Notes under the pieces: generated by a model | Database searches by the model: none | What the model was told of the DNA's origin: nothing | Seen by the model: the letters and a program-made list of their open reading frames with translations, nothing else | From: Paenibacillus aurantius | GTDB taxonomy: Bacteria > Bacillota > Bacilli > Paenibacillales > NBRC-103111 | Direction of reading: 5' to 3' | DNA length: 64,000 bases | Assembly: GCF_032268605.1 (NCBI RefSeq) | Contig: NZ_CP130318.1 | Span: forward strand, 4,563,501 to 4,627,500 | Shown: positions 10,843 through 13,524 of the stretch, piece by piece | Layout of the letters: each line of letters opens with the position of its first letter | Position numbering within the stretch: position 1 is the first letter of the stretch | Translations under genes and position numbers: made by a program

Positions 10843-10882
10843 TCTATCTCTCCCTTAATCATCGGTATGATTTATACTCCTC

Positions 10883-12274
10883 TTATTTTAGCGGAATCTC
10901 TAAAATACCTCTATCACTCTCGATCACATACTCGGAATCGGAGCCTCGAATATTCTTCTTGAGCCGTAAACCCCTTGCCGTCATTTCAAGAGCCAGCTCC
11001 AGCGGAAAACGATCCATCGCATCTTCTTTCTTTTCTTCTAAGCTCTTTAGTATGGCCTCCCTTCCCTGAGTGCATAGCTCCATATCCAGATCGCGGCCTC
11101 GAACGGAAAAATAGGATGCGTAGAACTCTAAAGGATAATACAACTTATAGAATGCACTTCGCACGGCCATGATGACATAGGAGACGGCAAAGGATTTGGG
11201 GAAAAGGTACTGGATTTTCTGGCAAGATTCCATGTACCAATCCGGAACCTTGGATTTCAACATGACTTCGCGGAACGAATCCGAAATCCCTTTCCCTTTA
11301 CGCACGTCGTTCGCAATCGCGTAAGCTTTGTCCTGCTCTATCCCGTACTCCATGAGGTCCAGCATCAGCTGATCTCTGCTTCCAATCGATTCCGTAAGCG
11401 AACTTCTTCCCGCCTGCATCCGTTCTTTGGCGTTACCTTCCCATGTTCCGTTTCCATGCGAAAGCCCGCTGATCTGAACCAATTCAGTAAAGGTCGAAGG
11501 CTGCATAATTCCAAGCATTTCCCGCACCCACTGAATACCCATTTCCGGTACACCATAGGTAGCAACACCGGACTTGATTTGACCCGAAGTTACGCCAAGC
11601 GCCCCGGTTGACCGAAATAAGCTCAATACTTCGGGATCGTTCATGGGGATATCCCGTGGATGAACGCCCGTAAGAGCATGCAGCCGTTTCATAATGGAAA
11701 GCTCTTCATGAGCAAAGAGATCGACCAAAGGCTGGCTGCTGTCCGATCCAAGATTATCAGTATAAAGCCTTAATTCTTTTTGTTCCTCTTCCTCAAATTC
11801 TTTGGGAACATAGATATCGATATTCGGTGGAGTGTTGCCATCGATTCCAAGAAACATTTCATACGGGATCCTGTGCCCGTCCCCCACCCATTCGCTCCCG
11901 CACTCCGCGCATTGCTTGTTCGGCAAATCGAAGCCGCTGCCTGTACCATTTGCAGCCCATTCGAAATGTCTGCATTTCCGGCAAAGATAATGAGGTGGCA
12001 GCGGATTGGAGTCGGTTATTCCGAGCAAATAGGCCACGAAGCTCGAGCCGACCGAACCTCGGGGGGCCGTCAAATATCCTGCAGACTTCGCCCGATCGGC
12101 AATCCTGGCGGCAGCCAAATAAGGCTCAGCGAACCCCTTTCTTAAGATGTGTCCGAGCTCCTCCTCTACTCGTGAAACGGCCAATTCCGGAGCGGTATCC
12201 CCGTAAAGAGTTCGAATGGCGGCGTTACAAAGCGAACGAATAGGGTGATTTTCGCTTTCCAATGGGTTTGTCAT
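10883..12274 (-). CDS. truncated PolC-like protein lacking most of the catalytic palm
   Basis: A 463-residue relative of the C-terminal half of PolC, the Gram-positive replicative DNA polymerase (about 1,440 residues). It keeps RGSVGSSFVAYLLGITDSN, NPLPPHY, the four-cysteine zinc site (CRKC...CAEC), LVQISGLSHGNGTWEGNA, VRKGKGIS and YPLEFYASYFSVR. OB, PHP and exonuclease regions are absent. The PolC motif PDIDLNF reads PNIDIYV, so one of two catalytic aspartates is Asn. Comparison with PolC as I recall it suggests about 100 palm residues are missing before VDLFAHEEL. The C-terminal clamp-binding tail is also missing. DNA synthesis is therefore unlikely. ATG 12274 is preferred over 12280 because GGAGG lies nine bases upstream. 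It has its own promoter-operator and lower GC than its neighbours. A decayed pseudogene is possible, but the frame is intact. Confidence 0.85.
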   Translation of the reverse strand: MTNPLESENHPIRSLCNAAIRTLYGDTAPELAVSRVEEELGHILRKGFAEPYLAAARIADRAKSAGYLTAPRGSVGSSFVAYLLGITDSNPLPPHYLCRKCRHFEWAANGTGSGFDLPNKQCAECGSEWVGDGHRIPYEMFLGIDGNTPPNIDIYVPKEFEEEEQKELRLYTDNLGSDSSQPLVDLFAHEELSIMKRLHALTGVHPRDIPMNDPEVLSLFRSTGALGVTSGQIKSGVATYGVPEMGIQWVREMLGIMQPSTFTELVQISGLSHGNGTWEGNAKERMQAGRSSLTESIGSRDQLMLDLMEYGIEQDKAYAIANDVRKGKGISDSFREVMLKSKVPDWYMESCQKIQYLFPKSFAVSYVIMAVRSAFYKLYYPLEFYASYFSVRGRDLDMELCTQGREAILKSLEEKKEDAMDRFPLELALEMTARGLRLKKNIRGSDSEYVIESDRGILEIPLK

Positions 12275-12317
12275 TTTCATCTACCTCCGGTTTTTTTATA
12301 TCCATAAACCAAATCGG

Positions 12318-12347
12318 CTTATAGTTGCGTTGACACTCAACTCAACA
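12318..12347 (-). promoter_or_regulatory. promoter-operator of the PolC-like gene
   Basis: On the minus strand a -35 TTGAGT (12340-12345), a 16-base spacer and a -10 TATAAG (12318-12323) precede the gene. The inverted repeat TCAACA...CGTTGA (12328-12347, eight-base centre) covers the -35 at exactly the same offset as the repeat in front of the XRE gene, with one mismatch. This implies control by the same repressor. Confidence 0.7.
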
Positions 12348-12363
12348 TGCAAGGTAAAAAAAA

Positions 12364-13011
12364 TTACAAGTCCAGCATCATCTGCTCGTACTTGGGCTTA
12401 TTTCCTGCCGAGCTGGGATCTCTTACTTCGCCATCTGGATCGATATGCAGAAGCTGAAGCTGGGTCAGGCGGACCGATAAAGCCGAGATGGATACCCGAA
12501 AACAATCCGCCAACTTATAAAGCTTGGAAAGATGAATGCGTCCCATTTTTTTGAGCTGACCGACAGCAAGATCCACCATCGGATGCGGGAGCAAAAGACA
12601 ACCCGCAAACAAATCCGCCTGCACCTCTTCCACCGGTTTCGTCCGACTTTTCTGTTCCAGATCCTGAAGGCGAAGGATGTAAGGAGATTCGCCGGTATGC
12701 AGCACCCAATGTCCGAGCTCATGAGCCAGTGTGAAATGGTACGTACCAAGCTTTCTGTCGAATAAATCGCGGTGGGTTTCATTCAACACGATTTGCCTTT
12801 CATTCGGGAAAAGCGCTGCCATAACGAGACCTTCCGCATCCAAGTGATCAATTCTCTCCCAGCAGATCTGCAACTCGAAATGAAATTCCACAAGCTCTTC
12901 TATGGGGACAGGCTGAATGATTTTCCCTCCGGGATTATAGCCATAATCGAGTAATATTTTTTCGGTGAGCTTGTCCATACGTTCACGCGTAATAAACCGG
13001 GTAGCTATCAT
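12364..13011 (-). CDS. ImmA/IrrE family metallopeptidase
   Basis: A 215-residue zinc peptidase of the ImmA/IrrE (COG2856) family. The HEXXH motif is HELGHWVLH near residue 100, and the third ligand is probably in the downstream EVQADLFAGCLLLP. ImmA of ICEBs1 and IrrE of Deinococcus cut partner XRE repressors (ImmR, DdrO) and so switch on their target genes. Here the start overlaps the stop of the XRE gene by four bases (ATGA), and the PolC-like gene follows after 89 bp. That arrangement strongly suggests the XRE protein is its substrate. The inducing signal is unknown; DNA damage is the precedent. Confidence 0.92.
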   Translation of the reverse strand: MIATRFITRERMDKLTEKILLDYGYNPGGKIIQPVPIEELVEFHFELQICWERIDHLDAEGLVMAALFPNERQIVLNETHRDLFDRKLGTYHFTLAHELGHWVLHTGESPYILRLQDLEQKSRTKPVEEVQADLFAGCLLLPHPMVDLAVGQLKKMGRIHLSKLYKLADCFRVSISALSVRLTQLQLLHIDPDGEVRDPSSAGNKPKYEQMMLDL

Positions 13012-13364
13012 AGCGGGTCGCCCTCGCCTTCTTCGCCAATAATTTCCTTAATCTTCTTCCACTGTGCAGGAGAAAGCTCGGATGCTTTTCTAAGAAAGAC
13101 CGGAATTTCTTTGTTTTCCGTAATCAATCTTTGAAAACTTTTGGGTACTTTATTCGCAGCCAAAATAAGCCCTTCCGGGTCCACTTGAAGTTCTTCCGCG
13201 ATTCTTATGATTTTATCTTCCGCAGGAGGATCCATCGTTCCACTTTCAATCTTGCTGATATAGGTAAAATCAATGCCCACCCGATCTGCCAGCTGGCGCT
13301 GCGTAACCTTACGCTGCTTTCGCAGATTGCGCAGAAGCTCGCCAAATTCGCTCAAAGATGCCAC
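13008..13364 (-). CDS. XRE-family repressor of the protease/PolC-like operon
   Basis: A 118-residue protein with an N-terminal Cro/CI helix-turn-helix (residues about 8-65: LRNLRKQRKVTQRQLA, GIDFTYISKIESGTMDPP) and a C-terminal tail that could hold a protease-sensitive site. The GTG at 13364 is close to GGAAGG. A TTG at 13355 gives the typical MSEFGELLRNLRKQ and better spacing, so the true start may be there. It is first in the operon, overlaps the ImmA/IrrE gene by four bases, and sits directly behind a consensus promoter overlaid by an inverted repeat, which suggests autorepression. Confidence 0.9.
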   Translation of the reverse strand: MASLSEFGELLRNLRKQRKVTQRQLADRVGIDFTYISKIESGTMDPPAEDKIIRIAEELQVDPEGLILAANKVPKSFQRLITENKEIPVFLRKASELSPAQWKKIKEIIGEEGEGDPL

Positions 13365-13382
13365 CGCCTTCCAGTAACTCTT

Positions 13383-13412
13383 ATTCTATATATGTTGAGT
13401 GATTTGTCAACA
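13383..13412 (-). promoter_or_regulatory. promoter-operator of the XRE-ImmA/IrrE operon
   Basis: On the minus strand, -35 TTGACA (13405-13410), 16 bases and -10 TAGAAT (13383-13388) make a good vegetative promoter. The perfect inverted repeat TGTTGA-N8-TCAACA (13393-13412) overlaps the -35. A near-identical repeat at the same offset precedes the PolC-like gene. Confidence 0.8.
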
Positions 13413-13524
13413 AAATTTATAAATAGTTCAGACCGTTATCTTGTATTTTCAAGAAGCCAAGATCACGGATTCAGGGGTATGATGAAGAGGAACTTAGAAG
13501 CCATTCGAAACGGAGGATTTGCCG

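Follow-up and report, generated by a model that had tools for sequence, protein, structure and literature searches.

An XRE-ImmA gene pair and a thumb-less PolC derivative linked by a predicted operator in Paenibacillus aurantius

The accessory cassette and its genes

The sequence analysed here (hereafter, the window) is a 64,000-nucleotide stretch of contig NZ_CP130318.1 of Paenibacillus aurantius. It contains a small cassette in which the genes for an XRE-family repressor, an ImmA/IrrE (M78) metalloprotease, and a PolC-derived protein (PolCL) are all encoded on the minus strand, together with two copies of a predicted operator. The features identified are as follows.

10864–13483, no strand: accessory cassette, absent from genome G001 of the same species, with GGTATGAT at both ends
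13393–13412, no strand: XRE-ImmA operator TGTTGA-N8-TCAACA (TGTTGAGTGATTTGTCAACA), a perfect match
13383–13410, minus strand: XRE promoter TTGACA-N16-TAGAAT, with the -35 element within the operator and 11 of 12 consensus bases
13008–13364, minus strand: XRE-family repressor, CapH-like, 118 aa from GTG, 57–80% identity to nine relatives
12364–13011, minus strand: ImmA/IrrE (M78) metalloprotease, CapP-like, 215 aa, with a HELGH active site and the tail EQMMLDL
12328–12347, no strand: PolCL operator (CGTTGACACTCAACTCAACA), one mismatch, with a T-tract in front that is also seen in cis and trans relatives
12318–12345, minus strand: likely PolCL promoter TTGAGT-N16-TATAAG, recognized by eye and not listed by the promoter scan
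10883–12280, minus strand: PolCL, 465 aa, PolC-derived, lacking the thumb, PHP, exonuclease, and HhH regions and having N153 in place of the first catalytic Asp

The XRE and protease genes (13364–13008 and 13011–12364, respectively) share a 4-base overlap. Translation of the XRE gene can start either from the GTG (118 aa) or from a TTG at 13355 (115 aa), and the latter may be the actual start because the relatives begin with MSEFG. PolCL comprises 463 aa when counted from the second Met, which is the length given, along with the overlap, in a preliminary description of this locus. The low GC content noted in that description is also evident (47.6% in the locus vs 58–59% in the flanks).

The cassette is ∼2.6 kb in size and can be regarded as accessory because it is missing in G001, the other genome of the same species compared. 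In the alignment with G001, homology ends near 10856 and restarts near 13476, with ∼88 bp of unrelated sequence in between; because this empty site is not clean, the GGTATGAT copies at 10864–10871 and 13476–13483 represent a candidate target duplication only. At the cassette site, G001 (locus L069) contains a shortened NUDIX gene. The neighbours of the cassette are NUDIX and HD genes, with no immune operon downstream of the repressor-protease pair. No integrase, phage, or conjugation genes were recognized among the ORFs around the cassette, and no defence genes were found beside the PolCL gene. An intact native PolC (1442 aa) is encoded elsewhere in the same genome.

Structure and relatives of PolCL

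PolCL descends from PolC-type DNA polymerase III, with which it shares the zinc knuckle, the GS motif, the fingers, and about 47% identity. All four zinc cysteines (C100, C103, C124, and C127) are retained, and PNIDIYV stands where PolC has PDIDLNF, both as previously described; N153 thus occupies the position of catalytic D972 and D155 that of D974 in Enterococcus faecium PolC. Because PolCL matches PolC in two blocks (residues 6–165 with 411–571 of 3f2b and residues 185–455 with 682–962), ∼110 residues are missing. Alignment with native PolC and relatives places the lost segment (IGTVAEKTAFGYVKKY...GCTGVKRSTG) between the two catalytic strands, and it is gone from every related short form. 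A loss of ∼100 palm residues had been proposed, but from the domain order we read the segment as consisting for the most part of the thumb subdomain, together with adjoining palm strands. In PolC, the thumb interrupts the palm (PMC12592400), so ‘thumb-excised’ fits better than ‘palm-deleted’. The exonuclease, PHP, N-terminal, and HhH/clamp-binding parts of PolC are also absent.

The D972A+D974A double mutant of E. faecium PolC is inactive (PMC12592400). With N153 at the position of D972 and no thumb segment, PolCL is likely to be catalytically dead, as had been suggested earlier. In three of the seven PolCL proteins identified (see below), PDID is kept, and the presumed loss of catalysis in these members rests on the thumb. 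The second and third aspartates, the four zinc cysteines, and the GS motif are invariant in all seven, as are Y358, F360, and Y368, which correspond to Y1274, F1276, and Y1284 of E. faecium PolC. Most PolCL proteins have no clamp motif of their own; the thumb-less PolC of G101 (L042, 5460–7871) ends with QLNMF, which matches the clamp motif, and the other six do not. Structure predictions for PolCL (from a two-row alignment) and for the protease alone gave pLDDT values of 37 and 36, respectively, and both were discarded.

Thumb-less PolCL genes were found in 7 of 104 family genomes (G000, G010, G011, G013, G096, G099, and G101), encoding proteins of 465 to 815 aa, the longer of which (791–815 aa) keep a PHP-like domain and no exonuclease. 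They form a single clade with long branches (support 100/100). Random frameshifts in related copies had been named as evidence against a functional system, and none was found, all seven reading frames being intact. Ka/Ks values were 0.24/0.99 for the G010–G011 pair and 0.32/1.28 for the G096–G099 pair, compared with 0.07/1.02 for native PolC of G010 and G011. PolCL therefore changes faster than PolC, yet is under purifying selection (Ka/Ks near 0.25) and, given the single clade and the intact frames, is not a random wreck. A separate clade (support 99/91), termed PolC2 and found in G012, G010, and G062, consists of complete second PolC copies with PDIDL and with exonuclease and PHP motifs.

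In a search of 395 order genomes, no PolCL beyond those of the seven family genomes was present among the matches listed. Close relatives of the protease were detected in 13 of these 395 genomes; a comparison with 399 genomes of the class yielded none from beyond the order. Matches in phage and plasmid collections, judged from the match tables plus two records that were read, mostly consisted of two pieces flanking the missing segment and resembled ordinary PolC. As no relative of PolCL was confirmed in viral contigs, a phage origin was discarded. With this result, no PADLOC match for PolCL, and no adjoining defence genes, the anti-phage device proposed as one option in the preliminary description finds no support here.

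The XRE-ImmA pair and its predicted operators

The best PADLOC match of the protease was capP (E = 5.4e-20), ahead of the RmrA models, and CapP was also the only PDB match of the protease profile; capH (E = 7.4e-13) was second for the repressor, with a score about equal to that of the first. Because RmrA and other M78/XRE models match as well, the CapHP assignment is one by best score only. The HELGH motif is invariant in all 13 ImmA relatives, and the locus shares with CapH-CapP the adjacency of an XRE gene and an M78 gene with an intact HExxH, as well as predicted sites in its own promoter and in an output promoter. CapP and PprI of Deinococcus have been described as proteases that are activated by single-stranded DNA (ssDNA) and then cleave repressors (PMC13373217, PMC10904395), which makes ssDNA the most likely signal here. 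Given this homology, the protease may plausibly cleave the XRE repressor when damage is signalled.

All 13 ImmA relatives end with Q-[LMI]-x-[LMF], followed in 11 of them by two further residues (QLTLDL type), and the linker before this tail varies in sequence and length. Clamp-binding peptides have the consensus QL[S/D]LF, and that of Pol IV is QLVLGL (PMC3716654). A pattern based on this literature matched PolC C-termini, eight ImmA proteins, and one PolCL, with a single further match among 666 ORFs; because the pattern was chosen after the tails had been seen, we treat the low background as no more than a lead. The tail thus resembles a sliding-clamp-binding peptide, and the protease may possibly be tethered to the clamp. 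M78 proteases encoded on viral contigs (L080–L089), which are distant ImmA relatives, mostly end with xLF or xLFD; such ends lack the Gln, yet they too recall clamp peptides.

Read along the genes, both operators in the window begin 2 bases before the -35 element, in agreement with the earlier observation of the same repeat at the same offset in two promoters. The PolCL promoter is weak. Within the 6.3-Mb genome, no perfect match occurs besides the site at 13393–13412. Among the 104 family genomes, the XRE-ImmA pair is present in 10, including six of the seven PolCL carriers, a co-occurrence with a Fisher value of 1.3e-7; this value, like all E-values and counts given here, was computed ignoring phylogeny.

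Absence of the gene set from all other genomes had likewise been named as grounds for refutation, but the set and the shared operator do recur elsewhere. A PolC-type gene directly follows XRE-ImmA in the window, G096, and G101 (PolCL) and in G012 (full PolC), with gene order and orientation conserved. In G010, G011, and G013, the PolC relative is located on another contig and the same operator is still found upstream. In total, the operator precedes all eight accessory PolC-type genes of XRE-ImmA genomes with zero to two mismatches, and such matches were reached in 0–5 of 500 shuffles. In contrast, none of 11 native polC genes has an upstream site with zero or one mismatch and 10 of them have none with up to two, the remaining one (G096) having a two-mismatch site without the GTTGAGTTGA core. 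The operator is also absent before PolCL of G099 and PolC2 of G062, both from genomes without XRE-ImmA. The 8.3-Mb genome of G010 contains only two perfect sites, located before PolC2 and PolCL, and the single perfect site of G013 lies before PolCL. Complete second PolC copies are under the operator in two genomes. A T-tract and a TGTTGAGTTGAnnnTCAACA-type site recur in most of the output promoters, and in most XRE promoters TTGACA lies inside the operator. Union of XRE-ImmA and PolCL in one regulatory system through the shared predicted operator, as the preliminary description had envisaged, is thus well supported at the level of sequence.

Polymerase outputs are not confined to PolC types. 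In G074, the operator lies between ImmA, on one side, and an M16 peptidase gene with a second DnaE, on the other (L059, 2372–7244). This second DnaE (1189 aa) is catalytically complete and shares 69% identity with the native DnaE encoded elsewhere. A DnaE of G062 (L149, 2586–6155) is 91% identical to it and has neither XRE-ImmA nor the operator. Judged from these gene arrangements, the output in the closest relatives is usually a DNA polymerase III alpha-type gene.

PolCL is the sole output found in the present genome. Other one-mismatch sites exist in it; of three inspected, two fall within genes, whereas the third is located in the intergenic region ahead of a HAD-like gene, and a small further target is possible. 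No polymerase genes adjoin the third perfect site of G012 or those seen in G099, G062, and G095. Control of PolCL by LexA was rejected, as no LexA box above chance was detected in the window and none near PolCL.

A possible reserve-replicase switch and its relation to known systems

We hold, with moderate confidence, that the XRE-ImmA pair is a CapH-CapP-like switch for the control of reserve replicases and that PolCL acts at the replisome without catalysis. The XRE protein would repress its own operon and, through the second operator, the PolCL gene, as the sites conserved in cis and in trans imply. The CapP-like protease would probably be activated by ssDNA and may be held at the sliding clamp by its QxxLxL-type C-terminal tail; homology and this motif suggest that damaged or stalled forks would then lead to cleavage of the repressor. 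Because the same operator controls PolC2 and the second DnaE in relatives, the pair appears to govern a reserve-replicase programme. PolCL itself would most likely work non-catalytically; since its dNTP-pocket residues and zinc knuckle are kept and its thumb and first catalytic Asp are lost, its possible roles during stress include modulation or braking of native PolC and service as a decoy for it. The persistence of PolCL in G099 with neither XRE-ImmA nor the operator counts against this explanation, as do the rapid evolution and length variation of PolCL, the PDID retained in three members, the lack of a clamp motif in most of them, and the match of other M78/XRE models to the pair. More tentatively, the system may represent a LexA-independent replication-stress regulon of one family, in which a clamp-tethered, ssDNA-sensing CapP-like protease frees spare PolC/DnaE and a dead thumb-less replisome remodeller, a C-family counterpart of ImuB.

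Damage-induced polymerases have usually been thought to be Y-family or DnaE2 enzymes under the control of LexA. In the present case, additional copies of essential replicases and a seemingly dead PolC derivative appear to be governed by a CapHP-like switch, pointing to an emergency programme of the replication machinery that has not been described before. No protein of this kind is mentioned in the main-text passages searched of a 2026 survey on bacterial DNA polymerases, from which strongly diverged or truncated sequences had been dropped before tree construction (PMC12926913). Should the clamp tail of the protease prove genuine, it would tie repressor cleavage physically and directly to the replication fork and help to show at which place ImmA-type proteases encounter their signal.

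Systems of three components, in which XRE and COG2856 are joined by an additional effector, were predicted by Makarova et al. (PMC2701414). RipAB (Spr1629/Spr1630) of Streptococcus pneumoniae likewise combines an XRE-ImmA regulator with an output acting on the replication machinery (PMC12795458), although its RipB is a single fusion protein and no description of RipA relates it to a polymerase. The present locus fits this frame, with a new kind of third part. Because XRE-ImmA proteins are known as toxin partners (PMC2701414), because the toxin of RipAB, whose antitoxin is of the XRE-ImmA type, acts on the sliding clamp (PMC12795458), and because a dead PolC that retains its nucleotide pocket could be a competitor of PolC, PolCL might instead be a toxin-type replication brake, i.e. 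a dominant-negative poison that is freed on repressor cleavage and causes growth arrest under damage or phage attack, much as RipA targets DnaN. This is unlikely, because the same operator also lies over complete PolC and DnaE copies, which are no obvious poisons, and PolCL genes occur away from XRE-ImmA, the one in G099 having no pair at all.

The DnaE2 and ImuA/ImuB system resembles the present one in linking an accessory C-family polymerase to damage and in using a dead polymerase relative as a partner. A role for PolCL as a C-family counterpart of ImuB, a translesion or mutasome accessory assisting in the loading or handover of an active polymerase at damaged forks, would agree with the damage-type controller, the operator common to active spare PolC and DnaE in relatives, and the clamp-motif match in G101. 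However, the LexA-run mutasome differs from a system with XRE-ImmA control in which the dead member belongs to the C family rather than the Y family; no ImuA, ImuB, or Y-family gene adjoins PolCL, the window shows no LexA box close to it, and most members lack a clamp motif, making such a role quite improbable. The rapid evolution and large length variation of PolCL (from 815 down to 465 aa), as in drifting relics, and its rare and patchy occurrence could alternatively mean that it is a decaying relic of a once-useful spare PolC carried beside an active regulator; seven intact ORFs, a Ka/Ks of about 0.25, an identical thumb excision across the clade, operators kept in trans, and invariant zinc, dNTP-pocket, and two catalytic residues make this very doubtful. 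Target duplication is a known resistance route and the three invariant aromatic residues match E. faecium residues that respond to or contact inhibitors, but these residues are also kept in native PolC as an ordinary nucleotide pocket and no inhibitor is known for the host, so that a reserve or decoy against natural polymerase inhibitors or PolC-targeting phage proteins is highly improbable.

With regard to the proposed switch itself, CapH-CapP is similar in combining an XRE repressor with an M78 protease and in having an operator over its own and the output promoter. It controls CBASS and other immune operons, whereas the output here is a polymerase relative or a spare replicase; the present switch also seems to act in trans on distant genes, and its protease carries a clamp-motif-like tail. 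PprI/IrrE-DdrO of Deinococcus and ImmR-ImmA of ICEBs1 offer a further analogy, in that an XRE repressor is inactivated by a metalloprotease once damage or a mobile element is signalled. A broad repair regulon is under the control of PprI-DdrO. The present regulon differs from those of both systems, and its locus is a 2.6-kb accessory segment only, with no ICE or prophage.

More distant XRE-ImmA pairs carry DUF3892 instead of a polymerase, and in G145 and G308 they adjoin serine recombinases; the layout of G173 is the same, with no annotated DUF3892 ORF listed. Considered together with the DnaE of G074 and the PolC types of the other genomes, these pairs indicate that the output of the switch is exchangeable. 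XRE-ImmA and the same operator were found beside two large serine recombinases in L090 (5632–10610), L091 (5955–10451), and L092 (5500–10320), with DUF3892 present in L090 and L092, an arrangement resembling a mobile element that uses the same switch. A DUF3892-like gene accompanies XRE-ImmA under the second operator in L061 (6858–10693) and L062 (7199–8621), and L061 adjoins restriction-like and ThiF-like genes, possibly a defence region. Operator-like remnants follow ImmA at L064 (7136–7155) and L063 (6965–6984) in G011 and G013, before unrelated genes (sigma factor and glycosyltransferase), and in these genomes the polymerase relative now resides elsewhere.
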